Origin: Xestospongia muta
Taxonomy: Eukaryota; Porifera; Demospongiae; Haplosclerida; Petrosiidae
Direction: 5' to 3'
Assembly (NCBI GenBank): GCA_963693285.1
Contig: OY848918.1
Span: forward strand, 3,973,876-4,037,875
DNA: 64,000 bases
Made by a program: the position numbers and the translations under genes. Shown one piece after another: positions 5,181-64,000 of the stretch. The notes beneath the pieces are model-generated. The model was not told the origin of the DNA. It saw nothing but the letters and a program-made list of their open reading frames with translations, and made no database searches. Each line of letters opens with the position of its first letter. The stretch's first letter is position 1.

Positions 5181-7206
5181 ATGGATCTAGTGAAGACAAC
5201 ATGGCTACTACTGATTTTGTTAGTATCTATTATATTAAAATGTACAGGTATGATTATATTAATAACTAATGTACTATTTTATTAAGTTTTATTACATAGC
5301 TGTTCAGTTCATATTTACTCCATCTCCTAACATTGGAGTCTATCAACTAGCACATTACCAATGTTCAATTGATCATCCTAACTCAATTATTGTCTGGGAT
5401 GTTAATGGAACAGTTTCTACTAGCATTAACATTACTCAACTTGATATCATTACAAGTGGAGCAGGATCACCTAACTCCAGTCTTACCATACCTGGATATC
5501 CTCAATATAACAATACAGTGGTGACATGTATTGCCTACGGACCTGTGGAAGGTATTAATAATGCTACTTTGAGAATTCAAGGTATATGTAAACATTTCTA
5601 GGAAATTACAGCATTATTCCAATCTCTCTCTCTCTCTCTCAGGAAAACTATCAGAAGTTATAAATTTAACATGTACTAGACAAGGTCTCTGTTGTATAAA
5701 CTGTTCCTGGTCTCCTCCTTTCTCTCTTGATGGAGTACCAATATATGGTTATATTATTAATGTCACTAATGAAGGAGATAATACACAATATACTACAACT
5801 AGTAATACTACCAGCTGGATCTATTGTCCCAGTCAATTTGGTAACTACACAATTAGTATAGCTGGTAATAACTTAGCTGGAGAAGGAGAGATAAGTACTA
5901 CATCAGTAACATTACCTACAGGTATTAGTAATAGTATGGGATTTATATTATATGGTATCCATAGTAACCATTTCTGAATATTCTGTGATAGCTGAAATGG
6001 TAGTTAGAAATTGGACTGTAATTTGTGTGATAAAGGTAATATATTGTAATGTTCAATACATGTATATTATATTAGTGTATTTAGAATGCAACATTTCTGG
6101 ACAACAAACCATTACATGTACACACCCACTTAACTCCTCTTAATAATGATACATCTCCTGTTGATGGTCAAGGTCGTGGACAGTTTGAAGGAGATATATT
6201 TATAGGAACTGTAAATATGGGAGACTTACCAGATAAAAAGAAATGGTTGATATCATTTAGTTTAGTATATAACAGTGGATTATATATCAATGTATCACAA
6301 CCTACTGAATTTAGTAAGTTAATATATACTGTATTATCATATGTATATGAAACTTGTCTACTAGCTACATTTGATGTACAAAATGGTAGTTTAGAAGTCA
6401 TAGACTTGACTGTTGGAAAAGTTTGTTTTACTTGTCACTTTGTTACTGGAAGTCAATCACAAGGATGTTATGTTGAGTTTAAATGTTTCAAAACAGATTT
6501 CAATGGAAATGTTACAAGTAACAGAACATCAGTAGATACCAGTACTGCTAGTAAATGTGTGACAGGAATATATACCAGTAACTATAATGTGACATTTTAT
6601 GATATGGATTATAACAATGTACCATATACTACTGAGTATGCTGTAAAACTGACTAATCAATCAGTGACTGGACTATCTCCTCCTCTTACTCCTACACTAA
6701 CTACTATATCAAGTGTAGCAGTTATTATTACATTATCAAATCCATCACCAACTACACTATGTACAGACTGTGATAATAGTAAGTTATTATTAATATTATA
6801 ACAATTAAGTTCATATTATTACTACTACAGTGAGGAGTGTTCAAAGAGATCTAATAATAGGTAATACTAGTATGATAACTTCTAGTCTAGTTAACTAAAT
6901 ATATTACTACATATTGTAGGTAGTATTACTGGTAGTCTAGTGGGTGTGTCAGTTCTAATACTGGTATGTACTGTACTAGTACTTATAATGATATATAGGA
7001 TAAGAAGAACTAAGTCACTGAGACAAGGTACAGTTAACTACATTTTATATACACATTCTTTTATATAAGTCACTACTAGATACTGTACAACATCAAGTGA
7101 TGACTGGTATACCTCAATATGAGAATATTACTAATTACCATCATACTACTGAACTAGAGATGAACACATGTGCAGCATATGGTATGATATAATATTAACC
7201 AATAAC

Positions 7207-7281
<75 letters not shown>

Positions 7282-7484
7282 ATATACATAGTATTAAGTA
7301 ATGATCTCACTTGAGTATAATATGTTATTACATTGTAGGTACTGTACCATCTCCTGTTAATCCACTAACAGATATTGTCCCTCATCAAGTTATACCTCAA
7401 TATGAAAATGTTGATATGATCACTAATACACTACCTGGTACTGAACTAGAGATGACCACATGTGCTGCATATGGTGTGATATAA
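5181..7484 (+). CDS. Ig-FN3 transmembrane receptor with two alternative tyrosine-motif tails
   Basis: Exons: 5181-5247, 5300-5581, 5643-5921, 5965-6035, 6085-6313, 6365-6778, 6831-6860, 6920-7027, then terminal exon 7080-7192 or 7339-7484. All junctions keep frame. The product is 541 aa with the distal tail and 530 aa with the proximal one. Signal peptide 1-22 (MDLVKTTWLL...), Ig-like domain about 23-116, FN3-like domain 117-209, a cysteine-bearing membrane-proximal domain 234-447 (CFTCHF, GCYVEF, CVTGIYTSNYNVTFYD), TM about 465-484 followed by RIRRTK, then the tail. The tails contain PQYENI or PQYENV and end CAAYGMI or CAAYGVI. Surface receptor status follows from this architecture. The ligand is unknown. 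The start is the only ATG with a signal peptide in phase with the Ig exon. Confidence 0.88.
7208..7279 (+). repeat. (GT)n microsatellite between the alternative last exons
   Basis: About 35 GT units lie between the proximal tail exon (ends 7192) and the distal tail exon (starts 7339). CA/TG tracts also lie between the paired tail exons at 26010-26040 and 48957-48988, but the gene at 11965 keeps only a few units. Confidence 0.9.
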
Positions 7485-7871
7485 TATTAAACAATACCTG
7501 ATAGTAGTAATTGTCTCCATATATTATACTAGTGACCATATTAGTTTGATATAAGTGTGAAAGAGAGAATGGTTTATTGTTCATATTTAAAATCACATTT
7601 CAAAAAAGACTCTTTTATCAATACTTCAATATTTTAATAACAATAATCATATTAATTTGTGTTATGTGTACAGTAAGTAGACAACTGTTCTATCTTAATT
7701 TGTTAATGTTAGTACATAATTTAGTAGTAATTATGTCAATCTACACATTTTATCTACACATTTTATATTTAATAATAATTTATATAAGAATGCTTACAAG
7801 ATATTAGAGGTCACTAACTGTATAGATGTTTTCCTCTTAGAAAAGTCTAAATTGTCATAATAAAGTTAATT

Positions 7872-7877
7872 AATAAA
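7872..7877 (+). terminator. Candidate poly(A) signal AATAAA
   Basis: An AATAAA about 390 bases after the distal stop. The equivalent hexamer follows the paralogue at 14893-14898. Nearer variants are possible in such AT-rich DNA. Confidence 0.35.
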
Positions 7878-7946
7878 CACTTAAATAAAGTTACTATTTG
7901 GTATATCAAAACATGACAACATCACAACAAATAAAATGAACTAATT

Positions 7947-8275
7947 TTAATTCAACGAAATCATACCAGCTTTCCAGCCTGTTTGGAGTGTGTGAGTAAC
8001 TCTTTTAACAACTTGTTTCATCTCTGGTTTATCAGCCAGGTTGTTGTTTTATCATTGAAGAAGTAATTATTTAAGCTAGAGTGGTCATATAGTTCAGTAT
8101 CCCTCATCACATTGAAGTCAAGTTTTGTATTGGTTCAATCAAATTAATAACACTCAGTAAAATGATATTTACCTACACCGATTGTATAACCAATTATATT
8201 TCACTATGTTCATCAGAAGAATAAGGAGAATGCACTGGAATTTACCACAGACCAGTGGCAGATCTAGGATACTGA
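7947..8275 (-). pseudogene. Iduronate-2-sulfatase-like C-terminal fragment
   Basis: On the minus strand, short stretches read GYTIGVGKY, then KLDFNVM, RDTELYDHSS and finally NLADKPEMKQ...THTLQTGW before a stop at 7947-7949. This order matches the end of iduronate-2-sulfatase-type sulfatases (GYSIR.. .YR, ELYDH, NLAD.PE). The frame shifts at least once between FFNDK and LADKPE and stops interrupt the 5' portion, so it is a relic. Related relics lie at 14965-15062 and 16271-16800. The match is from memory of the family, not a search. Confidence 0.6.
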
Positions 8276-8454
8276 GTAAGTTGACAGTAAGCTCTCTTGA
8301 GAAGCATTGAATTGAAGGTTATATTGAAGGTGCCTTAAGCACCTAGTTCTGGTCAATGGCTAAGAAAAGGACATTTTATGTTAGCTGAGAATGAACGAAT
8401 CACCAAAAGAAAATATTGATTTGATAGGAGGTCATCATGTTCAGATCATGTCAC

Positions 8455-8670
8455 ATATTTTTATTGTGGTCATCATCACATTTTTTGATATTGCATTTTT
8501 GAGGTGTCTTAGAAAACTGCAGCTTGATAATTAACAATTGGTTTTTATTTTTTAAGATATGAATATTTTATATATTGTATTATTTTTATATATTTTTATA
8601 TAGTGTATTTTTGGAGGGTCTTAGAAAATTACAACTTGATCATTGACAGCTGGTTTTTACTTTTTAGTCT
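8455..8670. repeat. Diverged tandem pair of about 65 bp, with a third copy at 17100-17172
   Basis: A segment reading gcatttttgaggtgtcttag near 8495 is repeated in diverged form near 8606 and again at 17115. It accompanies the sulfatase relics in both places, so both were copied together. Nothing coding is seen. Confidence 0.6.
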
Positions 8671-8760
8671 GTCTTTTATTAATTGTTAAGTATACAGCTT
8701 GTCACAACAAAGTGTCTTTCATATTGATATAAAACTAATACACATTGAAAACAATTACTT

Positions 8761-10964
8761 TTAATATTTTATCACACCATATGCAGCACATGTGTTCATC
8801 TCTAGTTCAGTAGTAGGTAGTGTATTAGTGATCATATCAACATTCTCATATTGAGGTATAACTTGATGAGGGACAGTATCTGTTAGTGGATTAATAGGAG
8901 ATGGTACAGTACCTACAATAGATAATACCATTTACAAACTATTACCATTGTTAGTATTACCTTGTCTCAGTGACTTAGTTCTTCTTATCCAACATATCAC
9001 TATATGTACTAGTACAGTACCATAGATAGTATAGACTACGTAACGTAGTCTATACTATCTATGACAGTACATACCAGTATTAGAACTGACACACCCATTA
9101 GACTACCTATATATTACAGTAATACATTATACAGTATACATAATAATATAATTATATTACAACAGTTTTCATTTTGAGAGTCAACTATTTATAAACTTAT
9201 AATGATATGACTACTAGTGTTTATATTATTGTCATATTTATTACCTCCTAATATACCGGCACCTGTTATAAACACTTCATCAACTTGTGTATCATCTATA
9301 TAACATGCATAGAGATATAATATTGACATCAAATGTACTAATGATTACTTACTGGTTAAACAGTCACATGTCTCTGTAGTAATAGTAACCATTGGACTTG
9401 TGGCTACAGGACAAGTGGTAGGAATTACTGTTACCATGGAAACATAACATGATACAGAATTAGTCTTTTTAACAAATGTAAAAGTTTGTTCGACTCCAGT
9501 TATAGTGATATTAGTAGATGATATTGCCCAGTCATCTGATAATGTACCCTCCTCTTCAATATCATATACATACATATTATATATACCAGTAGGTATATCA
9601 TATGTACATCCAATTACTGTACTACTACATACTGGAAAACACATCAATGATATGTTAGTACTGTAGTTAGAGGAGATTAATGAAATAAGACAGCCTTTAA
9701 CAATAGGTCCTGTTATAAAATGACAGCTGTAACATGTTCTACCAATATTACTTAGGTCATTATATAGAGTAGCTTCAGCAATATCATATGTACCTAATGA
9801 ATGAGAAAATATTTGTAAGTCATTTATAATGTACTTACTTAGTACAGTTGATTCTGTTACATCAATAACAGCTCCACTTGGTAATGATAAAGTCATTCTT
9901 GTTTTCCATATTTTATTCTCAGTTATATTTACAATATAGATGGTAACAACAATAACTCCTTCATCAGTTATAATTATTGGATTATTTAGAAATATAGAAA
10001 AATTATCTTCATTGTATATAACAACATTTAGTTGAGCTGACTCCACTGTATGAAGTTTCTAATATCACAAACATGAGGTATCTAAAGATATCATAATGTA
10101 ACTTACCAAATCATATATTGTTATATTTAGTATCCAACTATTAACTGATCTGGTAAAAGTAGTTGTTAATTTACTTATTTTAACTAAAATCAAAATAACA
10201 AATTATACATTAGTAACCATAGTGACAATACCTCCTAGTACTTGTAGCGATGTAGTAGTTATCTCTCCTTCTCCAGCTGAGTTATTACTAGCTACACTAA
10301 TTGCATATGTACATATAACAAATTGGTTTAGGAAATAAAACCATGTTGTAGAAGATATAGTGTTCTGTGTAACTAGATCTCCTCCATAAGTAATATTGAT
10401 GATAAAACCAGGTATGAATACCAGAGAGAAGGGAGGAGATCAGGAACAGTATATACATTGACTTTGTACATGACATATTAAGTTGTTGACAGGAGCTAGT
10501 TCACCTAATAAGAGGAGATATAATGACATTTATCAGAGAGTGTGTTACCTTGTATTCTCAGAGTAGTATTACCAAACTTAGTATAGAGATTGCCATCAAC
10601 AAATCCTGAAGCAAGGCATCTCACTATTATATTGTTATATTGAGGATTTCCAGGTATGATAAGACTGGAGCTAGATGATCCTGCTCCATTTGTAATGATA
10701 CCAAGTTGAATAGTGTCATTGTTAGTAGAAGCTGTTTCATTAACAATCCAAATAATACCCACATCAGGATGATTTACTGAACATTGGTAATGTGCTAGTT
10801 GATAAACTCCAATGTTAGGAGATGGAGTAAATATGAACTGAACAGCTATATAATAAAACTAAATAAAATAGTACATTAGTTATTAATATAATCATACCTG
10901 TACATTTTAATATAAGAGATACTAACCATATCATTAGTAACCATGTTGTCTTCACTAGATCCAT
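8761..10964 (-). pseudogene. Full-length receptor gene disabled by a nonsense codon and a foldback insertion
   Basis: Exons in transcript order: 10898-10964, 10549-10845, 10232-10504, 10107-10183, 9839-10058, 9353-9793, 9245-9295, 8961-9106, 8761-8912. Splice sites and phases match the intact gene at 20064. There are two lesions. In the FN3 exon the tryptophan of the CSWSPP motif is TGA (10440-10442). The TM exon holds a 43-bp palindrome plus a 7-bp target duplication (9021-9070), which adds 50 bases and shifts the frame. The tail exon is undamaged (PQYENV, CAAYGVIKY). The rest of the ectodomain is open, so inactivation looks recent, or the locus expresses only a short secreted Ig fragment. 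Confidence 0.85.
9014..9070. mobile_element. Miniature foldback insertion with 7-bp target duplication
   Basis: A perfect palindrome with 21-base arms (9021-9041 and 9043-9063, one central base) interrupts the TM exon exactly where other copies read acagtac followed by atacc. ACAGTAC is present on both sides (9014-9020 and 9064-9070), as expected of transposition or templated insertion. It has no coding capacity. Confidence 0.85.
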
Positions 10965-10984
10965 AGTGAGTTTATCATTACATC

Positions 10985-11964: not shown

Positions 11965-14507
11965 ATGACAGGTCCACTCAGACTAACTCTATTGATCATC
12001 ATGATAATGTTGTGTTCCAATATTATAGGTATCATGTAATGGACATTATATTAGTAGGAAATATGATATAAATAGTTGTACAAAACCATTGATTATTGTA
12101 TTAAAGTACTAGAGTTAATAATTCTTGTATTAGTTAGAGATATAAACTATTGTAGTGATTGTCTTTATTAGTTACATTCAAAACTTGAATTAAACAATAT
12201 TAACATGTAGATATAATGTCAGTATGTAATGTATTTATTATGTATTAAGGTAATGATAATAATATAATTTATTATAATAATACATGTATTATGTAAGCTC
12301 ACAATCGTTTGTGGGTCAAAAGAATTTTATAATCACCTTTGTCTTTAAAATTCAAACTAATGAAAACTATATTTATTTCATCTCATAGCTACTGTTCAGT
12401 TCATATTTACTCCATCTCCTAATATTGGAGTCTATCAACTAGCACATTACCAATGTTCAGTCGATCATCCTAATTCAATTATTGTTTTGCTTGTTAATGG
12501 AACAGTTTCTACTAACATTAAGATCAAACAACTTGGTATTACTACAAGTGGAGCAGGAACACGTAAATCAAGTCTTACCATACCTGGATATCCTCAATAT
12601 AACAATACAGTAGTGAGATGTATTGCATTTGGACCTGTGGAGGGTATTAATAATGCTACTTTGAGAATTCAAGGTATATTAAACATCTCTTGATAATTAA
12701 AACATTACTTCAATCTCTCTCTCTCAGGAAAACTATCAGAAGTTGGAGATTTAAAATGTACCACACAGGATTATTGTTGTATAAATTGTTCCTGGTCTCC
12801 TCCTTTCTCTCTTGATGGAGTACCAATCTATGGTTATATTATCAATGTCACTAATGAAGGAGATAATACACAATATACTACAATTAGTAATACTACCAGC
12901 TGGATCTATTGTCCCAGTCAATTTGGTAACTACACAATTAGTATTGCTGGTAATAACTCAGCTGAAGAAGGAGAGATAAATACTACATCAGTAACATTAC
13001 CTACAGGTATTAATAGTAGTATGTAATTTCTATTATATAGTATCCATAGTAACCATTACTGAATACTCTGTCACAGCTAAAATGGTAGATAAAAATTGGA
13101 CCATAATATTCATAATAAAGGTAATATATTGTACTGTTTAATACATGTTTATTATATTAGTGTATTTAGAATGTAACATTTCTAGACAACAAACCATCCT
13201 ATGTACACACCCATGTAACTCCTGTTAATAACGATACATCTCCTGTTGATCGTCAAGGTGGTGGACAGTTTGAAGGAGATACATTTATAGGAACTGTAAA
13301 TATGGGAGACTTACCTGGTAAAAAGAAATGGTTGATATCATTTAGTTTAGTATATAACAGTGGATTATATATCAATGTATCACAACCTACTGAATTTAGT
13401 AAGTTAATATATACTGTATTATCATATATATATGAAACTTGTCTACCAGCTACATTTGATGTACAAAATGGTAGTTTAGAAGTCATAGACTCGACTGTTG
13501 GAGAAGTTTGTTTTACTTGTCACTTTGTTACTGGAAGTCAAGCACAAGGATGTTATGTTGAGTTTAAATGTCTTAAACATGAGGTCAATGGAAACATTAC
13601 AATTAACAGAACATCAGTAGATACCAGTACTGCTAGTAAATGTGTGACAGGAATATATACCAGTAACTATAATGTGACATTTTATGATATGGATTATAAC
13701 AATGTACCATATACTACTGAGTATGCTGTAAAACTGACTAATCAATCAGTGACTGGACTATCTCCTCCTCTTACTCCTACTCTAACTACTATATCAAGTA
13801 TAGCAGTTATTAATACATTGTCATCACCTAGTACACTATGTACAAACTGTGATAATAGTAAGTTATTATTAATATTATAACAATTGAGTTCATATTATTA
13901 CTACTACAGTGAGGAGTATTCAAAGAGATCTAATAATAGGTAATACTAGTATGATAACTTCTAGTCTAGTTAACTAAATATATCACTACATATTGTAGGT
14001 AGTATTACTGGTAGTCTAGTGGGTGTGTCAGTTCTAATACTGGTATGTACTGTACTAGTACTTATAATGATATATAGGATAAGAAGAACTAAGTCACTGA
14101 GACAAGGTATAGTTAACTACATTTTATATATACACTCTCTTATATAAGTCACTACTAGATACTGCACAACATCAAGTGATGACTAGTATACCTCAATATG
14201 AGAATATTACTAATTACCATCATACTACTGAACTAGAGATGAACACATGTGTAGCATATGGTATGATATAATATTGACCAATAACAGTGTGTGTTTTTAT
14301 ATACATAGTATTGAGTAATGATCTCATTTGAGTATAACATGTTATTACATTGTAGGTACTGTACCATCTCCTATTAATCCACTAACAGATACTGTCCCTC
14401 ATCAAGTTATACCTCAATATGAGAATGTTGATATGATCACTAATACATTACCTACTACTGAACTAGAGATGATCACATGTGCTGCATATGGTGTGATAAA
14501 ATATTAA
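11965..14507 (+). CDS. Ig-FN3 transmembrane receptor with two alternative tyrosine-motif tails
   Basis: Exons: 11965-12028, 12389-12673, 12728-13006, 13050-13120, 13170-13398, 13450-13857, 13910-13939, 13999-14106, then 14159-14271 or 14356-14507. The product is 541 aa with the distal tail. The signal peptide is a different type from its neighbour at 5181 (MTGPLRLTLLII), but every later exon is a close paralogue. Ig about 22-116, FN3 117-209, membrane-proximal domain with CFTCHF and CVTGIYTSNYNVTFYD, TM with the VGVSVLILVCTVLV core, RIRRTK stop-transfer. The proximal tail reads PQYENI...CVAYGMI. The distal tail reads PQYENV...CAAYGVIKY, two residues longer than in the gene at 5181. No lesion is seen. 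Regulation is probably through the upstream block shared with 3982-4344. Confidence 0.88.
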
Positions 14508-14892: not shown

Positions 14893-14898
14893 AATAAA
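14893..14898 (+). terminator. Candidate poly(A) signal AATAAA
   Basis: At the same relative place as the AATAAA at 7872-7877 after the paralogue. Weak evidence in AT-rich sequence. Confidence 0.3.
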
Positions 14899-14964
14899 CA
14901 CTAAAATAAAGTAACTATTCAGTATATCAAAATATGACAATATCACAACAAATAAAATGAACTA

Positions 14965-17280: not shown

Positions 17281-17299
17281 ATTACATATTAATTACAAA

Positions 17300-50562: not shown

Positions 50563-52079
50563 ATGACGAGATCTCCAATGGAAGTCATACTAACTCTCCT
50601 AATTGTGATATTGTGCTCTAATACTAAAGGTAAGGACAGACAGTAGCTGTTCTACTTTCATTTAACGGTTACCTTAGTGATAGGCTTGAACAATGTAGGA
50701 GGCTTAAATGTCATATAGTTATACAAATATGTTTTCAGACTGACCAAAACTTTTTATTTCATTATATAGCTGCTGTTCAGTTCATATTTATTCCATCTCC
50801 TAACATTGAAGTCTATCAACTAGCACATTACCAATGTTCAGTGGATCATACTGGCGTGACTGTTACTTGGCTTGTTAATGGAACAGCTTCTAAGGACAAT
50901 AATATTATCAAACTTGGTATTGTTACAAGTGGAGCAGGATCATCTAACTCCAGTCTTACCATACCTGGATATCCTCAATATAACAATACAGTAGTGAGAT
51001 GTAATGCATTTAAATTTTTGGGTAATAATATGACTTACTTTAACTTCAATGAATCTATTCTGAGAATACAAGGTAACACACTCTCTGATATATGTCGTTA
51101 TATCTCCTCTCATTAGGTGAACTAGCTGCTGTCAGTAACTTGATATGTCATGTACAAAGTCAGTATATAAACTGTTCCTGGTCTCCTCCCTTCTCTCTGG
51201 TATCTATACCTGGTTATATCGTCAATGTTACTTATGGAGGAGAACTGGTTACAAAGTACACTACATCTTCTACAACATGGCAGTACATCTACTGCCCCAA
51301 TCAATTTGGTACATATATGATTAGTCTAGCTGGTAATAACTCAGCTGGAGAAGGAGAGATAAGTACTACATCACTACGTTTACCAGGAGGTAAACTTTTC
51401 TTGTCAAACTGATTGAATATCTTATAATCACAGATATCATCATTTGCCACTTGGTAGTTAAAAGATTACCAGATGCCACATATAATTTCAGCTATATTGT
51501 AGAGGTACATTATCTCTCATAGTTTATTTATGGAATTCTATTTTCTTTAGACTAGGTATCCTTTATTATCATCATCTATATCTATACATATAACAAACAG
51601 TGCTGGAATTACATCAGTTTTTGATGGAAATGTCAATGTTGATGGAAATAAGCTTACAGGAAACGTACATATTAAAATGACAAGAAGACAGAAGTGGAAT
51701 GTTGTTTTGATGCTAGGAGATAACTGTAAAGGAAGGACAAAAACATTCAGTAAGTTCATTTGATTATGTATTTCAAGATTTTTATAAATTTCCATTAGCT
51801 ACATTTAATGTACAAAGTGGCAGTGTAACAGTCAAGAACTCTAACACTGGAGAAGTTTGTTTCACTTGTCACTTTGTTGAAGGTGGTCAGGGAAAAGGAT
51901 GTTATATTGAATATAACTCACTTATAACAGACTACTACAGTGGTAATATTATCATAGTGAGAACATCAGTAGATACCAGTACTGCTAGTAAATGTGTGAC
52001 AGGAATATACACCAGTAACTATAATGTGACATTTTATGATATGGATTATAACAATGTGCCATATACTATAAATAAATAA
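50563..52079 (+). CDS. Secreted Ig-FN3 receptor ectodomain without TM or tail
   Basis: Exons: 50563-50629, 50770-51072, 51117-51389, 51434-51504, 51551-51749, 51799-52079. All are in phase, giving 397 aa. The signal peptide is a distinct type (PMEVILTLLIVILCS). Ig about 23-123 (YQCSVDHTGVTVTWLVNG), FN3 124-214 (YINCSWSPPFS), membrane-proximal domain from 238 (CFTCHFVEG, GCYIEY, CVTGIYTSNYNVTFYDMD). In the last exon NNVPYT is followed by INK and TAA, because the normal exon is cut at about 52064. AATAAA overlaps the stop. The lost end of the exon reappears at 52684 beyond an inverted piece of another receptor. So the gene was membrane-bound and was cut by an insertion; it may now be secreted. 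Confidence 0.82.
52071..52076 (+). terminator. Candidate poly(A) signal overlapping the stop
   Basis: AATAAA within the last codons of the secreted receptor (aat aaa taa). If used, processing would fall 10-30 bases downstream. Confidence 0.35.
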
Positions 52080-52705: not shown

Positions 52706-54523
52706 GTTATTATCAATATTATCATAATATATACTATTGGTTATTGAGTAACACTGTATCTATCGCACTTATAGAAAAGAGAAGCTGTCTCTTCTTCATC
52801 TAATGAGAACACTAATAATGAATGTACATGTTATGTACATTTGAGTGAATGTTTATCATTGTTATCTCATTATATATAATAACAAGTTATTTTTATTTTT
52901 TTATATAATGTAATTGTTGACAAAGCTGCTTTTTAATGTGTTGGGTAATCTATTTAAATGCTGCATATTTCATTCAATACTCCCTTACACACAAGATATT
53001 TATAATAGTTCAATATATAACATATAATGCAACATTGGTCTTCATATTATGAAAGTACACTTTCTGATGAGATATGGCATGCTTAACAACATATAATTTT
53101 TTTATTTACGCTAATACTCAATGTGTTATGACCAAATTGAAGTGTCTTTTTGTAAATAAACACCTACTTTGCATATAAATCTACCTATGTATTCTACACT
53201 ACCTACTTATGGTGACATCACAAGTCATATATCATTATCTGACAGTCAGTACTCTACTTTGTCTAATAAAACAAGTGATAAATTAACTATTAAGAAGACA
53301 ACTGGTCAGTAAACTTTACTATATAGTAGATATTATATTTGTTATATTAGAGAGGTCTCTTTATAATGAAATAACTACCTACATATGAAATTGTCAACCA
53401 TGCAATTATATGTGCTATGTTGTGCTTTAAGTAGATGACCATACAACACAATCATACCACTCTTCCTAGCATATAATAATAAATGAATGTAATTCATTAG
53501 CTGTTAGTGCTTACTTGAACTGTTAATGTATGACACATAATCACTCCCACATAATTTAATGTGTATAATCACTCCATATAAATTAATGTGTATAATCACT
53601 CTCATATAAATTAATGTGTATAATCACTCCCATATAAATTAATGTGTATAATCAATCTCATATAAATTAATGTGTATAGTCTTCCATAAGTTAATGTGGA
53701 AACTCAACTCAGTTACAAGCACCTAATAATACCCTGTGATAACAATGTATAGAACTTAAACACTCATCTACTAACTATGGTATTCCAGAAACTGTTATAC
53801 TACATTATTAGTTCATTTCCTGGAAGTACCAATGCCACAAACAAATTAGGAAAATAAAGGTTTCTTTGTTACAAAATCACTACTTATAAATAAATTTACT
53901 AACCAATTATACTAAATGAATATACCAATTTTATATAAAATGTATTGTGCTTTAAAATAAGATTATAAATGACAGCTAATAAATCATCACACTTTTCTTA
54001 TCATATCAAATTAATTAACTTCATTAGTTATTAGTACTGAAATATATTGTTACTGTATGTCATACACTACTAATGCCTCAGCATAAACAATATCTAATAT
54101 TATGTATGCACTATTTTATTGCACTATATATATATATATATATTCATCTGCAGTGAATGAAACTGACCTTGATGACCTCTATAACTACAATACAATGTAA
54201 TTAATTGACTGCTTATTATTATTGTTAGTGATTTTGTTGACCAATTAGAAGTACAGCTGCTCAGTGACTGTATTTACCAGTATATGTGTTAGTATGTGTA
54301 TTATTTATATGTCCCCTTTATATTATATATAATTATGTTATATTGATAGTGCTATATTAAAATGGAAACAGTTTACTTGACCAACTAGAATTATCATGTT
54401 TTATACTAAATGATTGTAGCATGTGTTATGTTTAAATAATATAATATTATATGACATAGTCCTTTTTTGCTTTCACATGTCATGGATGTCAATGTTGACA
54501 CAGTAATAATATCTCAGTACCAA
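52706..54523. other. Region without a confident gene; minisatellite and older array unit
   Basis: 53160-53312(+) holds a short frame with tyrosine motifs (see findings). 53537-53698 is a minisatellite. From about 53720 to 54523 the sequence matches 58255-58990 and 62740-63478, the noncoding end of the tandem unit, at greater divergence. Confidence 0.5.
53537..53698. repeat. Minisatellite, about 30-bp unit, five copies
   Basis: The unit ataatcactc(c/t)catataaattaatgtgt repeats with small changes. Noncoding. Confidence 0.9.
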
Positions 54524-56605
54524 TCAATATTTTATCACACCATATGCTGCACATGCGTTCATCTCTAGTTCAGTAGTAGGTAGTGTATTAGTGATCATAT
54601 CAACATTCTCATATTGAGGTATAATGATAGCATCTGTTAGTGGATTAATAAGAGATGGTACAGTACCTACAATGGATAATACCATTTACAAACTATTCCC
54701 ACTGTTAAAATTACCTTTTCTCAGTGACTTAGTTCTTCTTATCCAACATATAACTATATGTATTAGTACAGTACAAACCAGTATTAGAACTGACACACTC
54801 ACTAGACTACCTATAGAGAGTAATCTGACAATTACTTGAGTTCACATAAGTAAATAAATTATTCATCTTTCAAATTCATTTTAATTTTTATAACAAAGAT
54901 TTTATTATTGTTTCAAAATGTCTAGTAGAATAATTCATTACCTCCTAATGCAGCTGTCATTACACTACTTGTGTCTTCACAAACCTGTATATCTATAAAA
55001 CATATCATGTCACCAAGAAATAAAATATGATATAAAAACCAAATAGTGTTAGTTCTCACCTAAACAAGTACTAGTAGTAACTGTTACTTGAAGACAGGAT
55101 ACAAAGGACACTGGAGGGGATGGTTCCAATCCAGTAATAGTGATATTAGTAGATGATATTGCCCAGTCATTTGATAATCTACCCTCCTCTTCAATATCAT
55201 ATACATACATATTATATATACCAGTAGGTATATCATATGTACATCCAATTACTGTACTAATACATACTGGAGAACACATCAATGATATGTTAGTACTGTA
55301 GGTAGAGGAGGTTAAGGAAATAAGACAACCTTTAACAATAGCTCCTCTTATAAAATGACAGCTGTAACATATTCTATCAATATTACTTAGGTCATTATAT
55401 AGGATAGCTTCAGTAATATCATATGTACCTAATAAATGAGAAAATATTTGTGAGTCATTTATAATCTACTTACTTAGTACAGTTGATTCTGTTACATCAA
55501 TAACAGCTCCACTAAGTAATGATAAACTCATTTTTGTCTTCCATATTTTATTCTCAGTTATATTTACAATATAAATGGTAACAACAATAATTCCTTCATC
55601 AGTTAGAATTATTGGATTATTTAGAAATATAGAAGAATTATCTTCATTGTATATAACAACATTTAGTTGAGCTGACTCCACTGTGTGTGGACATTGTTGA
55701 AGTTCCTAATATCACAAACATTAGGTATCTAGAGATATCATTATGTAACTTACCAAATCATATATTGTTATATTTAGTATCCAACTATTAACTGATCTGA
55801 TAAAGGTAGTAGTTAAATTACTTATATTAACTAAACTCAAAGTAATAAATTATACATTAGTAACCATAGTAATATTACCTTCTGGTACATGTAGTGATGT
55901 AGTAGTTATCTCTCCTTCTCCAGCTAAGTTATTACCAGCTACACTAATTGTATATGTACCAAATTGACTGGGACAGTACTGCCATGTTGTAGAAGATGTA
56001 GTGTTCTGTGTAACTAGTTCTTCTCCATAAGTAACATTGATAATATAACCAGGTATGGATACCAGAGAGAAGGGAGGAGACCAGGAACAGTTTATATACT
56101 GACTTTGTACATAACATATCAAGAAGTTGACAGTAGCTAGTTCACCTAATGAGAGGAAATATAATGACATATATCAGAGAGTGTGTTACCTTGTATTCTC
56201 AGAGTAGATTTACTGAAGTTGTAATAATTATTGCCATCTACAGTTCCAAAAGCATTACATGTCACTACTGTATTGTTATATTGAGGATATCCAGGTATGG
56301 TAAGACTGGAGTTAGGTGATCCTGCTCCAATTGTAACAATACCAAGTTGGATAATATCATTGTTGGTAGAACCTGTTTCATTAACAAGCCAAGTAACAGT
56401 CACACCAGTATGGTCCACTGAACATTGGTAATGTGCTGGTTGATAAACTCCAATGTTAGGAGATGGAGTAAATATGAACTGAACAGCTATATAATAAAAC
56501 TAAATAAAATAGTACATTAATTATTAATATAATCATACCTGTACATTTTAATATAATAGATACTAACAATATCAGTAGTAGCCATGTTGTCTTCACTAGA
56601 TCCAT
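54524..56605 (-). CDS. Ig-FN3 transmembrane receptor, array unit 1
   Basis: Exons in transcript order: 56539-56605, 56190-56486, 55879-56145, 55754-55830, 55474-55705, 55060-55428, 54942-54992, 54715-54810, 54524-54666. All are in phase, giving 532 aa. Signal MDLVKTTWLL, Ig (YQCSVDHTGVTVTWLVNE), FN3 (YINCSWSPPFS), membrane-proximal domain (YSCHFIRG, GCTYDIPTGIYNMYVYD), juxtamembrane QVCEDTSSVMTAALG, TM (SVSVLILVCTVLIHIVIC), WIRRTK. The tail is 3 codons shorter than usual because of an in-frame deletion before IPQYENV, and it ends CAAYGVIKY. The 45-base intron at 55429-55473 contains a stop, so it must be spliced. No lesion seen. Confidence 0.88.
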
Positions 56606-57359
56606 ACTGAGTTTGTCTTAGTTATGACAACAATATATATTGAAACTTGGCAAAAGGCTTTATGTCCTCTATGTTAGAGTTATCTGACTTAGTGATATCC
56701 TGTCTTCTTATTATCTGATTTTGTTGTTTCAGCGACTAAGTTATGATGATTTTAACATTACCATTAGTTGCCATATAAATTATTGTAAAAATTTAAATTG
56801 TAGATTACTATGGAATTCAAACTTCTTGTGAATTATTTACTGTATAATTTGTTTGTTTGTATTAGCACAAGATACCACAGCAAGTAATAGACATGTACTC
56901 TAAATTCTATAGTAAACTATTGATGTAAGTTACAGAGTGATCATTAAAATAACTGTTTAAAATTGATGTTATTATGTCAAAATTAGTGTTTTTATTATAT
57001 TTGATATTAACAAAATTATAATGATATATATTAGATAATGTATTATATCTCAAAGTACTACCAGTTATTTGTACATGATTATACAATTGTAAATCTCTAT
57101 TAAGGTGCTACTATTGCGATTACTGAAAAAATTATTTGCAGTATATTTAAAATTGATTGTCTTCAACGATCAATGTAACCAATTAGATTTTGTTTATATT
57201 ATAGCGAAATAAATTTTTTGATTAAGTCTTAATATTAACAACAATTAATTTTAATAACTATTATAGTTGGTAAACTATATCAATTTAGTATTATAACAAA
57301 CACATTATATTATGCTGTAGTAGTTCCACTGATATAGTTACTTCTATCTCTCTCCACAG
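56606..57359. other. Array spacer, no gene recognised
   Basis: Conserved with 61093-61833. It includes the receptor's 5' flank. No domain or spliced frame is found. Confidence 0.5.
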
Positions 57360-57762
57360 ACTCTAGTACTTTAATTAAATTTGCTGGTGACAGTCATACT
57401 GATACAGCACAAAACCTACAAGAAAAGAAAATACAGAAGAAAAGAAATTAGTAAAATCTACTATTTCACATGGTAAGAGGATAAATTGCTTTATGTTACC
57501 ATGAGTACTTTCCATAGATAATAATAATTCAATGCAGCTGTTTCTATCTAGTAAGAAGGTATTATTTCTTCTCTCTTGGTGTCAAGAGAGAGGACATATA
57601 GATCTCCCTCCATTGATCCCTTTTATACAGCTGTTACAACAAGAAGGTAGACTACTCTTAGTTCTTCTTATATATTATAATGTTACCTCCATCCCTCACT
57701 GTGTTATAGACTTAGTAGTAGGTGAACTAAGTAACAGACTTCCAGCTGCTATGAGAGGATAG
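57360..57762 (+). CDS. Unrecognised two-exon reading frame (3' end of a gene), array unit 1
   Basis: 57360-57450 (after an acceptor, ccacag) and 57552-57762 (after ctatctag) join in phase 2, giving about 101 codons to a stop. The first part is charged (KFAGDSHTDTA, QEKKIQKKRN). The second reads LLSWCQERGHIDLPPLIPFI, LLQQEGRLLLVLL, GELSNRLPAAMRG, a composition typical of a folded protein. No first exon is visible. I do not recognise the family. It is duplicated at 61834-62235, where the donor of the first exon has GT changed to AT. It could be a captured 3' end of a host gene. Confidence 0.4.
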
Positions 57763-57918
57763 AATCATTTAAAATGTTACAAACTATTAATTAAAGAATT
57801 AAATTGAAACAATCAAGACCTACTTAAGTTAATTTATACAACAAATTATATAATAATTATATATGATTAATTTATTAAATATTATAATAAGTTGTTCTTG
57901 TTATTGCTATAGCAACCA

Positions 57919-58061
57919 TTATCTATGATATTTCCATTTATGATTCACAGTTCCATATGTTGGACACTGTTCTATTTCTAAGTATTCAGGTATCGGAGGA
58001 GGTTCCTCATCGTTAATAGCTATTGTATTGACAACTTCTATCCTCATTAGAGTAGTACCAC
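57919..58061 (-). CDS. Class III receptor tail exon (orphan), array unit 1
   Basis: It has an acceptor (cttacag), phase 1 like all other tail exons, and 47 codons plus a stop. It starts GTTLMRIEVVN and continues NDEEPPPIPEYLEIEQCPTY and GTVNHKWKYHR. There are two tyrosine sites: EYLEI, and CPTYGTV, which resembles the CAAYGVI end of other receptor tails. No matching TM exon is recognised between here and 58999. It may belong to a receptor whose upstream exons have decayed, or to a gene I cannot model. The identical class is at 62392-62534. Confidence 0.55.
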
Positions 58062-58999
58062 CTGTAAGTAGTAACTGACACACCCATTTTTTATTGATTA
58101 ATTAGTTATCTTTATGACATAATGAGATATAATATATGTAGATCAGTACTAGAGACAGTGGTAGTGAAACAAAAGGAAAACAAAAACATACCCACCAACT
58201 ACAGTTGATTAGCATTGTTCTCTTAATTTATGGACTTATAATATATTAGAGATATCTAGAACTTAAGTACTCATCTACAAACTACGGCCAGAAACTGTGA
58301 TAGTGCACTATTTGTTCACTTCCTGGAAGTACTAATACCACACACAATCAAGTAAACAATTAAAGAGATCTCTTTGTAACAAAATCATTGTCTATAAATG
58401 AGTTTGTCAACCAATTATACTAAATGAATATACAAATTTTATATAAATATTGTATTATGCTTTAAAATAAGATTATAGAAAGACAAAACAGCAGATAAAT
58501 CATCACATTTCTCTTATCATTATCAATTATATTAATTTCATTGATTGTTAGTGCAGATATGTACTGTTACTATATGACATATAGTACTGACATCTCAGGA
58601 TAAACAGTAACTAATAATTTTTGTGTATGTGTTATTTTATCACACCATATGTATACATCTCTAGTGCAGTGAATGAAACTGACCTGATGACCAACTATAA
58701 CTCAATTGTTGATAGAACACAAATAATTGACTGTTTATTATTATTAATTGATTGCTTATTATTATTGTTAGTGATTTTGTTGACCAATTAGAAGTACAGC
58801 TGCTCAGTGACTGTATTTATATGTTTTAGTATGTGTATTATTTATATGTCCCCTTTATATTATATATAATTATGTTATATTGTCAGTATTATATTAAAAT
58901 GGAAACAGTTTAGCTGACCAACTAAAATTATCATGTAAGGATTAGAACATGTTTTATGTTTTAGGAATATGATTGCAGATAACTATGTATAATATTCAA
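58062..58999. other. Array spacer, no gene recognised
   Basis: Conserved with 62535-63478 and, more distantly, from 58255 on with 53720-54523. A hydrophobic minus-strand frame near 58120-58220 is noted but lacks a credible donor. Confidence 0.5.
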
Positions 59000-61092
59000 T
59001 TAATATTTTATCACACCGTATGCATCACATGTGTTCATCTCTAGTTCAGTAGTAGGTAATGTATTAGTGATCATATCAACATCCTCATATTGAGGTATAA
59101 CTTGATGAGGGACAGTATCTGTTAGTGGATTAACAGGAGATAGTACAGTACCTACAATGGATAATACCATTTAAAAACTATTCCCACTATTAGAATTACC
59201 TTGTCTTAGTGACTTAGTTCTTCTTATCCAACATATCACTATATGTACTAGTACAGTACAAATCAGTATTACAACTGACACACTCACTAGACTACCTATA
59301 GAGAGTAAATCTGACAATTACTTGAGTTCACATAAGTAAATAAATTATTCATCTTTCAAATTCATTTTAATTTTTATAACAGATTTTGTTATTATTTCAA
59401 AATGTCTAGTAGAAAAATTCATTACCTCCTAATGCAGCTGTCATTACACTACTTGTGTCTTCACAAACCTGTATATCTATAAAACATATCATGTCAACAA
59501 GAAATAAAATATGATATAATAAAAACCAAATAGTGTTAGTTCTCACCTAAACAAGTACTAGTAGTAACTGTTACTTGAAGACAAGATACAAAGGACACTG
59601 GAGGGGATGGTTCCAATCCAGTAATAGTGATATTAGTAGATGATATTGCCCAGTCATTTGATAATCTACCCTCCTCTTCAATATCATATACATACATATT
59701 ATATATACCACTAGGTATATCATATGTACATCCAATTACTGTACTACTACATACTGGAGAACACATCAATGATAAGTTAGTACTGTAGGTAGAGGAGGTT
59801 AATGAAATAAGACAACCTTTAACAATAGCTCTTCTTATAAAATGACAGCTGTAACATGTTCTACCAATATTACTTAGGTCATTATATAGGGTAGCTTCAG
59901 TAATATCATATGTACCTAATGAATGAGAAAATATTTGTAAATCATTTATAATATACTTACTTAGTACAGTTGATTCTGTTACATCAATAACAGCTCCACT
60001 TGGTAATGATAAACTCATTCTTGTCTTCCATATTTTATTCTCAGTTATATTTACAATATAGATGGTAACAACAATAACTCCTTCATCAGTTATAATTATT
60101 GGATTATTTAGAAATATAGAAGAATTATCTTCATTGTATATAACAAAATTTAGTTGAGCTGACTCTATTGTGTGTGGACATTGTTGAAGTTCCTAATATC
60201 ACAAACATGAGGTATCTAGAGATATCATAATGTAACTTACCAAATCATATATTGTTATATTTAGTATCCAACTACTAACTGATCTGATAAAGTTAGCTGT
60301 TAAATTACTTATATTAACTAAAGTCGAAGTAATAAATTATACATTAGTAACCATAGTGATAATACCTTCTGGTACATGTAGTGATGTAGTAGTTATCTCT
60401 CCTTCTTCAGCTGAGTTATTACCAGCTACACTAATTGTATATGTACCAAATTGACTGGGACAGTACTGCCATGTTGTAGAAGATGTAGTGTTCTGTGTAA
60501 CTAGTTCTCCTCCATAAGTAACATTGATGATATAACCAGGTATGGATACCAAAGAGAAGGGAGGAGACCAGGAACAGTTTATATACTGACTTTGTACATG
60601 ACATGTCAAGTTGTTGACAGCAGCTAGTTCACCTAATGAGAGTAAATACAACGACATATATCAGAGAGTGTGTTACCTTGTATTCTCAGAGTAGCATTAT
60701 CAAAGTTATTATAGAGACTACCGTCAACAAATCCTGCAGCAAAACATTTCACTACTGTATTGTTATATTGAGGATATCCAGGTATAGTCAAATTAGACTT
60801 TTGTGGTCCTGCTCCATTTGTAACAATACCAAGTTGTGTAATATTATCATTATCAGAAGTTATTCCATTAATAAGCCAATTAACAGTCACACCGGTATGA
60901 TCCACAGAACATTGGTAATGTGCTAGTTGATAAACTTCAATGTTAGGAGATGGAGTAAATATGAACTGAACAGCTATATAATAAAACTAAATAAAATAGT
61001 ACATTAGTTATTAATATAATCATACCTGTACATTTTAATATAATAGATACTAACAATATCAGTAGTAGCCATGTTGTCTTCACTAGATCCAT
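59000..61092 (-). CDS. Ig-FN3 transmembrane receptor, array unit 2
   Basis: Exons in transcript order: 61026-61092, 60677-60973, 60366-60632, 60241-60317, 59961-60192, 59547-59915, 59426-59476, 59200-59295, 59000-59151. All are in phase, giving 535 aa. It is a close paralogue of the gene at 56605. It differs most in the Ig exon (NWLINGITSDNDNITQ versus TWLVNETGSTNNDIIQ; VKCFAAGFVDG versus VTCNAFGTVDG), while the membrane-proximal exons are almost unchanged. The tail is full length (VPHQVIPQYENV, CDAYGVIKY). It has the same 5' flank as unit 1, so co-regulation is likely. No lesion seen. Confidence 0.88.
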
Positions 61093-61833
61093 ACTGAGTT
61101 TGTCTTAGTTATGACAACAATATATATTGAAACTTGACAAAAGGCTTTGTGTCCTCTATGTTCTGACTTAGTGATATCCTGTCTTCTTATTATCTGATTT
61201 TGTTGTTTCAGCGACTAAGTTATGATGATTATAACATTACCATTAGTTGTCATATAAATTATTGTAAAAATTTAAATTGTAGATTACTATGGAATTCAAA
61301 CTTCTTGTGAATTATTTACTGTATAATTTGTTTGTTTGTATTAGCACAAGATACCACAGCAAGTAATAGACATGTACTCTAAATTCTATAGTAAACCATT
61401 GATGTAAGTTACAGAGTGATCATTAAAATAACTGATTAAAATTGATGTTATTATGTCAAAATTAGTGTTTTTATTATATTTGATATTAACAAAATTATAA
61501 TGATATATATTAGATAATGTATTATATCTCAAAGTACTACCAGTTATTTGTACATGATTATACAATTGTAAATCTCTATTAAGGCGGTACTATTGTGATT
61601 ACTGAAAAAATTATTTGTAGTATATTTAAAATTGATTATCTTCAATGATTAATGTAACTATTTAGATTTTGTTTATTATAGCGAAATAAATTTTTTGATC
61701 AAGTCTTAATATTAACAACAATTAATTTTAATAACTATTATAGTTGGTAAACTATATCAATTTAGTATTATAACAAACACATATTATGCTGTAGTAGTTC
61801 CACTGATATAGTTACTTCTATCTCTCTCTGCAG

Positions 61834-62235
61834 ACTCTAGTACTTTAATTAAATTTGCTGGTGACAGTCATACTGATACAGCACAAATCCTACAAGAAAA
61901 GAAAATACAGAAGAAAAGAAATTAATAAAATCTACTATTTCACATGATAAGAGGATAAATCACTTTGTTACCATGAGTACTTCCTCATAGATAATAATAA
62001 TTCAATGCTGCTGTTTCTATCTAGTAAGAAGGTATTATTTCTTCTCTCTTGGTGTCAAGAGAGAGGACATATAGATCTCCCTCCATTGATCCCTTTTATA
62101 CAGCTGTTACAACAAGAAGGTAGACTACTCTTAGTTCTTCTTATATATTATAATGTTACCTCCCTCCCTCACTGTGTTATAGACTTAGTAGTAGGTGAAC
62201 TAAGTAACAGACTTCCAGCTGCTATGAGAGGATAG
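61834..62235 (+). CDS. Unrecognised two-exon reading frame, array unit 2
   Basis: This is the copy of 57360-57762. The second exon is kept nearly base for base. The first exon's donor reads attaataaaa instead of attagtaaaa, so normal joining is lost and the copy may be inactive. Its function is unknown. Confidence 0.3.
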
Positions 62236-62391
62236 AATCATTTAAAATGTTACAAACTATTAATTAAAGAATTAAATTGAAACAATCAAGACCTACTTAA
62301 GTTAATTTATACAACAAATTATATAATAATTATATATGATTAATTTATTAAATATTATAATAAGTTGTTCTTGTTATTGCTATAGCAACCA

Positions 62392-62534
62392 TTATCTATG
62401 ATATTTCCATTTATGATTCACAGTTCCATATGTTGGACACTGTTCTATTTCTAAGTATTCAGGTATCGGAGGAGGTTCCTCATCGTTAATAGCTATTGTA
62501 TTGACAACTTCTATCCTCATTAGAGTAGTACCAC
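62392..62534 (-). CDS. Class III receptor tail exon (orphan), array unit 2
   Basis: Copy of 57919-58061 with the same acceptor, phase and residues (IPEYLEIEQCPTYGTV). Its preservation in both units shows only recent duplication, not selection. Confidence 0.5.
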
Positions 62535-63478
62535 CTGTAAGTAGTAACTGACACACCCATTTTTTATTGATTAATTAGTTATCTTTATGACATAATGAGA
62601 TATATAATATATGTAGATCAGTACTAGAGACAGTGGTAGTGAAACAAAAGGAAAACAAAAACATACCCACCAACTACAGTTGATTAGCATTGTTCTCTTA
62701 ATTTATGGACTTATAATATATTAGAGATATCTAGAACTTAAGTACTCATCTACAAACTACGGCATTCCAGAAACTGTGATAGTGCACTATTTGTTCACTT
62801 CCTGGAAGTACTAATACCACACACAATCAAGTAAACAATTAAAGAGATCTCTTTGTAACAAAATCATTGCCTATAAATGAGTTTGTCAACCAATTATACT
62901 AAATGAATATACAAATTTTATATAAAAATTGTATTATGCTTTAAAATAAGATTATAGAAAGACAAAACAGCAGATAAATCATCACATTTCTCTTATCATT
63001 ATCAATTATATTAATTTCATTGATTGTTAGTGCAGATATGTACTGTTACTATATGACATATAGTACTGACATCTCAGGATAAACAGTAACTAATAATTTT
63101 TGTGTATGTGTTATTTTATCACACCATATGTATACATCTCTAGTGCAGTGAATGAAACTGACCTGATGACCAACTATAACTCAATTGTTGATAGAACACA
63201 AATAATTGACTGTTTATTATTATTAATTGATTGCTTATTATTATTGTTAGTGATTTTGTTGACCAATTAGAAGTACAGCTGCTCAGTGACTGTATTTATA
63301 TGTTTTAGTATGTGTATTATTTATATGTCCCCTTTATATTATATATAATTATGTTATATTGTCAGTATTATATTAAAATGGAAACAGTTTAGCTGACCAA
63401 CTAAAATTATCATGTAAGGATTAGAACATGTTTTATGTTTTAGGAATATGATTGCAGATAACTATGTATAATATTCAA

Positions 63479-64000
63479 TTAATATTTTATCACACCGTAT
63501 GCATCACATGTGTTCATCTCTAGTTCAGTAGTAGGTAATGTATTAGTGATCATATCAACATCCTCATATTGAGGTATAACTTGATGAGGGACAGTATCTG
63601 TTAGTGGATTAACAGGAGATAGTACAGTACCTACAATGGATAATACCATTTAAAAACTATTCCCACTATTAGAATTACCTTGTCTCAGTGACTTAGTTCT
63701 TTTTATCCAACATATCACTATATGTACTAGTACAGTACATACTAGTATTAGAACTGACACACTCACTAGACTACCTGTAGAGAGTAAATCTGACAATTAC
63801 TTGAGTTCACATAAGTAAATAAATTATTCATCTTTCAAATTCATTTTAATTTTTATAACAGATTTTGTTATTATTTCAAAATGTCTAGTAGAAAAATTCA
63901 TTACCTCCTAATGCAGCTGTCATTACACTACTTGTGTCTTCACAAACCTGTATATCTATAAAACATATCATGTCAACAAGAAATAAAATATGATATAATA
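63479..64000 (-). CDS. Ig-FN3 transmembrane receptor, array unit 3 (partial, runs off the window)
   Basis: Only the 3' exons are in the window: juxtamembrane 63905-63955 (QVCEDTSSVMTAALG), TM 63679-63774 (SVSVLILVCTVLVHIVIC) and tail 63479-63630 (VPHQVIPQYENV, CDAYGVIKY). Splice sites are intact. The ectodomain exons should lie just beyond 64000. Confidence 0.82.

Follow-up and report, generated by a model that had tools for sequence, protein, structure and literature searches.

Clustered families of immunoglobulin (Ig) receptors are the systems to which the locus described here is compared. The Alr proteins of Hydractinia are membrane receptors with variable N-terminal domains, the tyrosine tails of the paired leukocyte receptors of vertebrates are read by SHP phosphatases, and Dscam and sDscam work in cell identity. 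The locus is an array of receptor-like genes, part of which lies in a stretch of 64,000 nucleotides (hereafter the window) on chromosome 2 (C2:3973876-4037875) of the giant barrel sponge, Xestospongia muta, whose genome measures 158.03 Mb. The COX1 frame of the mitochondrial contig contains nine TGA codons, in keeping with a sponge mitochondrion. By analogy, the array may work like the clustered Ig receptor systems Alr and KIR/LILR, to which it is likened by description and not as a member. The available text of PMC11876637, PMC11999971 and PMC13119343 portrays Alr as a clustered family of the Ig superfamily (IgSF) in which some genes are potential pseudogenes and some lie outside the main cluster, in a sessile animal, all of which has its like in the sponge, and Alr1 and Alr2 as highly polymorphic. 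The Alr family of these sources, compared by description only, counts 40-41 genes against at least 150 Ig exons in X. muta, and the sponge receptors differ in having a single Ig domain followed by fibronectin type III (FN3)-like modules.

The KIR, LILR, SIRP and Siglec families are likewise polygenic Ig receptors with different transmembrane (TM) and tail types and with tyrosine motifs, and the structural matches of the sponge Ig domain include CD22 and Siglec-10. In contrast to these receptors, the sponge tails mostly lack an immunoreceptor tyrosine-based inhibitory motif (ITIM; 8 of 69 have it), show no spacing of the activating motif (ITAM), and follow a different order of domains. Dscam and sDscam are also Ig and FN3 surface proteins with many Ig variants, and Dscam1 Ig7 and sDscam Ig1 are structural neighbours; unlike Dscam, X. 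muta carries its diversity in separate genes, with one Ig exon in each of six gene models, and not in alternative exons. Within sponges, the aggregation factors and the IgSF adhesion molecules and receptor tyrosine kinases of Geodia also serve recognition or adhesion, the Geodia proteins with Ig-like domains. Aggregation factor genes carry Calx-beta and related repeat domains, whereas the X. muta genes encode receptors with one Ig domain and a short tyrosine tail, in an array of megabase size; when three of the six intact models were scanned against Pfam, no kinase or aggregation-factor domain appeared up to E 1.

Taken as a whole, the locus is quite probably an array of many genes for single-pass type I membrane receptors that present a variable Ig face for recognition, most likely a receptor array diversified in the germline. 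The assembly itself shows the structure of the genes, their array, the exchange of cassettes, the pattern of variability and the SHP-like genes, and the Ig fold is supported by a model. The window contains six full-length open gene models in which every modelled intron is GT..AG, mostly about 43-61 nt long with a few of 70-360 nt. The exon plan runs from a signal exon (1) through Ig (2), FN3 (3), a split beta module (4 and 5), an FN3-like exon (6) and a stalk (7) to a TM exon (8) and a tail exon (9), with a second tail exon (10) in two of the six (G1 and G2). All six end in a TM segment and a tyrosine tail. Because intron phase is 1 throughout except for phase 0 between exons 4 and 5, these two exons probably encode one module and exon 6 another.

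Searches of the whole genome with single exons place the array at about 3.58-5.59 Mb on chromosome 2, a span of ~1.9-2.0 Mb of which the 59 kb in the window are a slice. The exon counts are lower bounds, as 150 of 206 Ig candidates, 150 of 393 exon-6 candidates and 150 of 231 tail candidates were scored. Among the scored Ig exons, 147/150 lie on C2 at 3.577-5.469 Mb, with two on C5 and one on C14; three of the 150 contain a stop and the remaining 147 are stop-free. The scored exon-6 copies are equally concentrated (148/150 on C2 at 3.65-5.59 Mb, one each on C14 and C15), as are the tail exons (148/150 on C2, two on C14). With 147 of 150 scored Ig exons within ~1.2% of the genome, the clustering goes beyond chance. 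Exon matches were joined into 87 chains, drawn from 254 kb (the window and three joined C2 stretches) and three further loci; sixteen of these chains are complete by matches, six in the window, nine in the three C2 stretches and one on C14. Extrapolation from the 15 complete chains in 254 kb gives roughly 110 intact genes for the array, which, judged by its exons, comprises well over a hundred related genes for putative cell-surface proteins. Outlying family exons are found at C5:1223471-1223788, C5:1325296-1325592, C14:2880822-2883813 and on C15; the C14 copy is complete by exon matches and the C15 copy carries a stop.

The Ig exon was modelled with AlphaFold from 30 sequences (pTM, the predicted TM-score, 0.61; mean predicted local distance difference test, pLDDT, 70.4). 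Strands are predicted at residues 2-8, 15-24, 29-35, 58-66, 74-83 and 86-95, and Cys22, Trp33 and Cys77 fall in strands B, C and F of the model, the standard Ig places. The model thus describes, with middling confidence, an Ig beta sandwich with B/F cysteines and a C-strand tryptophan. Foldseek gives a probability of 1.00 to CD22, VCAM-1 and sDscam Ig1 with a best E-value of only 0.0067 (Ig domains 0.007-0.08), and its best matches are mostly Ig domains, together with some further beta-sandwich folds, adaptin ear domains among them; the VIA-align matches are Ig domains, with Z up to 9.9. For the variability map, entropy was computed over 148 Ig sequences, 28 from the sampled loci of this genome and 120 from public assemblies. 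On strand C it alternates from residue to residue (T30 2.6, V31 1.0, N32 2.2, W33 0.2 and L34 2.7 bits), and so it does on strand F (K76 2.0, C77 0.1, F78 2.5, A79 0.5, A80 1.9). By strict parity, outward residues of strands C, F and G average 2.23 bits against 0.83 for inward ones (p = 9e-5), and the difference is 2.21 against 0.50 for C and F alone (p = 4e-5). Outward residues of strands B and E reach 0.58 and 1.43 bits (C and F outward versus B and E outward, p = 0.0012). On this model, the variable surface appears to be mainly one sheet face and its loops. The G-F-C sheet face is used for binding by many IgSF receptors.

Divergence was compared along ten genes. The Ig exon has a mean divergence of 0.161, against 0.058 in the intron before it and 0.101 in the intron after it; the next three introns stand at 0.068, 0.029 and 0.051, so the five introns nearest the Ig exon diverge by 3-10% where the exon itself diverges by 16%. 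Within the Ig exon, divergence is 5% over roughly the first 50 nt and then peaks at 24% and 31%. Other exons give 0.087 (FN3), 0.056 (exon 5), 0.109 (exon 6, driven by its 3' end), 0.048 (TM) and 0.079 (tail), while the two introns around the stalk reach 0.36 and 0.34. An exon that exceeds its introns in divergence is the mark of diversity selection, of import of older sequence, or of both. Selection statistics were computed on 28 Ig and 25 FN exons, leaving out those with stops, those with at most 90% coverage, and the divergent Ig_2 and FN_2 types. When the Ig exon is split by the strands of the model, the ratio of nonsynonymous to synonymous differences per site (pN/pS) is 0.49 in the A, B and E segments and 0.93 in the BC-to-D and F-G segments, with the former at or above that of the C-to-D and F-G segments in 84 of 2000 bootstraps. 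A split into framework and variable parts gives 0.39 against 0.97 (15 of 2000 bootstraps) and was defined on an entropy plot of these very sequences, so that the strand-based split is the fairer one. The 13 outward codons have a pN/pS of 1.58, and the 14 inward codons 0.51. Synonymous divergence (pS) is 0.21 in the Ig exon and 0.19 in FN3, compared to 0.02-0.08 in the TM and tail exons. These raised values imply that old cassettes spread by conversion contribute to the diversity of Ig and FN3, and since the synonymous sites of the TM and tail exons are alike too, much of the likeness of these exons would go back to gene conversion or to copying of recent date rather than to protein constraint alone.

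Exchange between modules is evident from the way in which three TM/tail cassettes combine with varied ectodomain modules. Exon-6 type 0 is paired with TM type 0 in 12 chains and with TM type 2 in two, exon-6 type 2 with TM type 0 in three and with TM type 2 in one, and exon-6 type 1 with TM type 1 in 19 (two of them without a tail match) and with TM type 0 in a single broken copy; a 28.6-kb repeat described below enters these counts twice, and hits of locus L017 were left out of them and of the exon sets. In ten one-type genes, Ig-exon distances track those of the other exons only weakly, with Spearman coefficients of 0.28 for FN, 0.05 and 0.23 for the membrane-proximal segments MP1 and MP2, and 0.04 for the stalk (Mantel p = 0.09, 0.40, 0.08 and 0.38 for the same order), and a compatibility test over the whole gene detects recombination along it (p = 0.001). 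The stalk region of ~325 nt, with its introns, is ~20-40% divergent among the ten genes and appears to be a further exchanged cassette with alternative stalk types.

The tails carry two recurrent tyrosine motifs. Among open tail exons of the sampled loci, PQYEN[VI] occurs in 15/22 of type 0, 33/42 of type 1 and 0/5 of type 2, and C-x-A-Y-G-[VM]-I in 18/22, 37/42 and 5/5, respectively. In the rows of the commonest length (17 of 22 tail-0 and 36 of 42 tail-1, five and six rows being left out of the residue percentages), the tyrosines of both motifs are present in 17/17 and 36/36. An earlier note on this stretch, made from its letters, had described conserved tails repeating both motifs on a single plan. 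The second motif is indeed widespread and PQYEN[VI] falls short of universal, a third TM/tail cassette without PQYEN (type 2, in G4) having gone unnoticed, and the tails are alike, as are their synonymous sites, so that protein constraint alone does not account for it. We take both YEN[VI] and YG[VM]I to fit the consensus of a Yxx-hydrophobic site, and YEN[VI] in addition that of a Grb2-type YxN site. In 19/22 first-tail exons, the GGTATGA near the stop contains a splice donor and an acceptor is retained further downstream, so that a single gene might encode tails of two lengths, short and long. SH2 domains are matched 76 times in the genome, and three single long open frames encode SH2-SH2-phosphatase proteins, the architecture of SHP-1/2: one on C5 (C5:8740500-8743300) and two in tandem on C3 (C3:11955900-11961700). 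We infer that such SHP-type phosphatases are possible readers of the tails. A further pair of SH2 matches lies on C3. The PQYEN codon pattern also matches places on C1 and C2 outside the window; seven of them were read on the minus strand, where six frames look unrelated to the tail and the place at C2:3.587 Mb carries VIPQYENV, a tail remnant.

Sequence and profile searches place the modules less firmly. Three whole gene models match no Ig model of Pfam up to E 1 and no domain above the Pfam cut-off. Searched as single exons, Ig_3 matches 7/30 (best E 0.0084) and ig 2/30 (best E 0.0051), and the fn3 profile matches 20/21 exon-3 members with a best E of 8e-5, the bit scores shown (22.1 and 18.2) being below the cut-off of 25. 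Reference alignments used 30 of 34 Ig and 21 of 31 FN sequences; that of exon 6 used 19 of 38 exon-6 references and 9 of 14 spans from exon 5 to exon 6. The model of exon 6 shows an FN3-like sandwich. For exons 4 and 5 a fold assignment was abandoned, because their half of the model has low confidence (pLDDT mostly 50-70) and was barely covered by the fold search; abandoned too was the idea that exon 5 is a copy of exon 6, the MAFFT alignment being forced; exon-5 rows were left out of the exon-6 alignment. Searches of PDB sequences returned nothing significant (best match of the Ig profile E 0.045). A whole-protein search of 5.8 billion proteins gave 0/7993 scored candidates at E <= 0.01, which is probably an effect of length and not absence, because the database holds such exons as short frames. 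Accordingly framed as exon profiles, a search of public assemblies matched 473/720 Ig and 287/1883 membrane-proximal candidates; the matches are clustered at 90%, and those listed have ENA as source, the window's own entries excepted, and no names. The longest contig reaches at least 500 kb in 64 of the 120 listed Ig clusters, lies below 10 kb in 53 and in between in three, and the short-contig variants probably come from other samples. In the variable part, 1/53 of these is at >=97% to a long-contig variant, a figure biased by the 90% clustering, and two of them reach at most 82% (P0143) and 92% (P0131) identity to the genome, flanking residues included. The public assemblies thus hint at more Ig variants than the reference holds, which, as the species of the short contigs is not given, is no proof of polymorphism.

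In the window, exon peptides matched by tblastn form 25 chains, of which six are complete, one is cut by the right end and 18 are partial or broken, some of these being single exons. The six intact genes and more than a dozen broken copies of the earlier note are therefore recovered, the former with GT-AG introns and open frames, and its picture of a clustered modular receptor family with hybrid genes is upheld by the array size and the mixing of exon-6 and TM types. It also rightly saw the ectodomains as the most variable part, the Ig exon exceeding its neighbouring introns with its variation on one Ig face, and knew of no named family; our searches of open-licence papers found no description of this one. 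The immune or allorecognition role that it suggested is here a candidate role. G1 (5181-7484, plus strand) has 10 exons and 575 aa, in the order signal, Ig, FN3, exons 4 and 5, exon 6, stalk, TM and two tails. Its first tail exon (7080-7181, PQYENI..CAAYG) ends in GGTATGATATAA, which reads either as GMI and a stop or as the splice donor to the second tail exon (7339-7484, PQYENV..CAAYGVI and a stop). G2 (11965-14507, plus strand), also with 10 exons and 575 aa, begins with a different signal-peptide exon (11965-12028). The other four lie on the minus strand and have nine exons: G3 (20064-17950, 544 aa), with membrane-proximal type 1 and one tail exon; G4 (22532-20347, 518 aa), with a type-2 TM and tail (CDAYGVI, without PQYEN); G8 (56605-54524, 532 aa); and G9 (61092-59000, 535 aa). 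If the ectodomain-only gene of the earlier note was G4, that claim fails, as this gene has its own TM exon (20712-20620) and type-2 tail exon (20426-20347, ending in KECDAYGVIIRQ); a truncated ectodomain with Ig, FN3 and partial membrane-proximal exons and no TM match in its chain does exist at 50772-52067 on the plus strand and may be the copy that was meant. The G9 Ig exon (60677-60973), the reference for the variability map, is variable at about residues 27-59 and 75-95, and the stalk region of this gene (exon 6 3' end, intron, stalk exon, intron) occupies 59317-59642.

An apparent stop in G8 falls within the 45-nt intron between exons 5 and 6, which leaves this copy intact. In nine aligned type-1 spans the same 45-nt intron (e.g. 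18938-18894) is open and in frame, and its retention would add ~15 residues; in the copy at 56605 it holds the stop. Broken copies on the minus strand include one at 8761-10964, with a stop in its FN3 exon and a TM exon split by a ~40-nt palindromic insert (window ~9020-9065) that is perhaps a small mobile-element remnant; a hybrid at 25812-27643, with a frameshifted main-type Ig exon, type-2 membrane-proximal exons and type-0 TM and tails; and a copy of a divergent subfamily at 27876-30139, of type 2 from Ig, FN and membrane-proximal exons to TM and tail, with a stop at the end of its Ig exon. The TM and tail of a next copy (63488-63775, minus strand) are cut by the window end. Unrelated frames at 44814-46241 (minus strand) carry a WALDNI-type motif and resemble reelin-like proteins by eye.

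Repeats are also seen at a larger scale. A 5-kb unit stands head to tail in the window (54521-59521 and 58997-64000, 96.2% identity) and carries receptor exons and an unrelated repeated frame (57505-57762 and 61951-62235). On C2, 28.6 kb at 3726285-3754868 recur at about 3772421-3800986, ~46 kb apart, with 99.72% identity, which points either to a tandem duplication of very recent date or to a haplotype left uncollapsed. The available part of the X. muta genome note (PMC12398682) reports a repetitive part of chromosome 2, at 16.1-18.9 Mb, within which the order of the contigs is unknown, and the removal of 28 haplotypic duplications during curation. Counted from the other end, this part lies at 3.25-6.05 Mb, and we conjecture that it may be the array if the assembly sequence is reversed. 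The view that the copies are haplotype artefacts was dropped, since their divergence is too high and the 28.6 kb are the sole long near-identical stretch among the joined contigs.

For the proposed recognition array, we infer surface expression, ligand binding by the G-F-C face, tail phosphorylation and SH2 partners. Each receptor would display a single Ig domain, held on a stem built of FN3-like beta modules, and carry one to four intracellular tyrosine motifs. The ligand would most likely be bound by the exposed G-F-C face, the core being conserved and the opposite sheet less variable. Duplication, inter-module recombination and gene conversion may keep the chassis alike, while old, diverged Ig cassettes and different TM/tail cassettes would be spread over it, so that one genome might provide over a hundred specificities on a common signalling frame. 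Ligand could then cluster the receptors, leading to phosphorylation of the YEN[VI] and YG[VM]I tyrosines and their recognition by SH2 proteins, among which the genome's own SHP-like tandem-SH2 phosphatases are plausible candidates.

Several observations weigh against this explanation. Its support comes from genome sequence and models, and its transcript, protein, binding and phosphorylation side is presumed. The Ig model is of middling confidence, with residues 41-55 below 50, and on strand G the residues S86 and D92 point inward by parity and are variable all the same (2.3-2.4 bits). The bootstrap interval of the outward-codon pN/pS, 0.98-2.92, just includes 1. Selection on point mutations alone is insufficient because the synonymous sites of the Ig exon are raised as well, so that either conversion from diverged donors or lineages kept over a long time must contribute. 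The compatibility test within the Ig exon is non-significant (p = 0.26 and 0.67), and other exon pairs retain shared history (FN-MP2 r 0.41, p 0.02; MP1-MP2 0.38, p 0.025; MP2-stalk 0.39, p 0.013). Pooled dN/dS values of the TM and tail exons (1.44, 0.84 and 1.68) speak of little protein constraint, and the tail motifs stand at 0.58 against 0.97 for the rest of the tail, a nominal difference. An ITAM is defined as Yxx[LI], 6-12 residues and Yxx[LI], an ITIM as [SIVL]xYxx[ILV], and the immunoreceptor tyrosine-based switch motif (ITSM) as TxYxx[VI]. ITAM spacing occurs in 0/69 open tail exons and 0/7 assembled tails. ITIM-type strings are confined to 7/22 tail-0, 1/42 tail-1 and 0/5 tail-2 exons, with G2 the only one of the seven assembled tails to have one (VAYGTV, in the spliced form), and ITSM-type strings to 6/69, all in tail-1 (6/42; 0/27 in the others). 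Strings of both types arise through changes at position -2 of either tyrosine.

Within the recognition array, the class of ligand divides into two readings. Self/non-self recognition at the cell surface comes close to an even chance without reaching it. The main alternative is an innate pattern-recognition repertoire for symbionts or pathogens, in a sponge that harbours symbionts at high density, a tentative reading that deserves serious attention. Microbe-facing receptors typically occur in large polygenic arrays with many broken copies. Several bacterial symbiont genomes were assembled from the same specimen (available part of PMC12398682), and the congener X. testudinaria has fewer SRCR and NACHT domains than Stylissa carteri in the accessible text of PMC4772301, leaving room for another repertoire; however, the uniform chassis, with a TM segment and a tyrosine tail in all six models, suits cell-cell receptors at least equally well.

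The remaining two explanations concern the role of the variation itself. It might mark identity in cell adhesion, cell-type sorting or gamete recognition, and serve neither defence nor allorecognition. The Ig and FN3 architecture, the structural likeness to Ig domains of Dscam and sDscam, and a review that, in its available part, describes sponge IgSF mainly as adhesion molecules (PMC11999971) fit such a role, but the many broken and hybrid copies and the large Ig set of the public assemblies better suit an arms race or an allotype locus, without being decisive; we hold the adhesion role to be clearly unlikely. Very improbable, finally, is a mostly decaying or neutral repeat array inflated by uncollapsed haplotypes and devoid of special function. 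The 18 of 25 partial or broken window chains and the 28.6 kb repeated at 99.72% agree with decay, as do the contig order and the removed duplications of the genome note in its available part (PMC12398682). Against it stand the pN/pS of 0.49 in the A-B-E and 0.39 in the framework segments of the Ig exon, the clean splice sites of six models, the 147/150 scored Ig exons that are stop-free, and an intron divergence of several percent among ten genes, too much for two haplotype copies; moreover, the variation follows protein geometry, unlike neutral decay.

A bolder version of the recognition array is a sponge histocompatibility complex, in which the G-F-C face would hold a self/non-self code, Ig cassettes would be exchanged and SHP-like phosphatases would provide the readout. 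We regard it as speculative and rather unlikely. A study of Amphimedon grafts, in its available text, takes rejection of fine specificity to indicate an underlying polymorphic genetic system (PMC5450542), and the X. muta array, physically bounded and at chromosome level, is a concrete locus to genotype against graft outcome. If the histocompatibility version is true, the tyrosine-tail/SHP logic of vertebrate natural-killer-type receptors would be present in sponges, by descent or by convergence. As three whole models show no domain above the Pfam cut-off, the family would escape standard domain surveys, and repertoires of this kind may be missing from tallies of the immune genes of sponges. 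The array would be an early-animal case of making diversity through germ-line cassette exchange over a common chassis.

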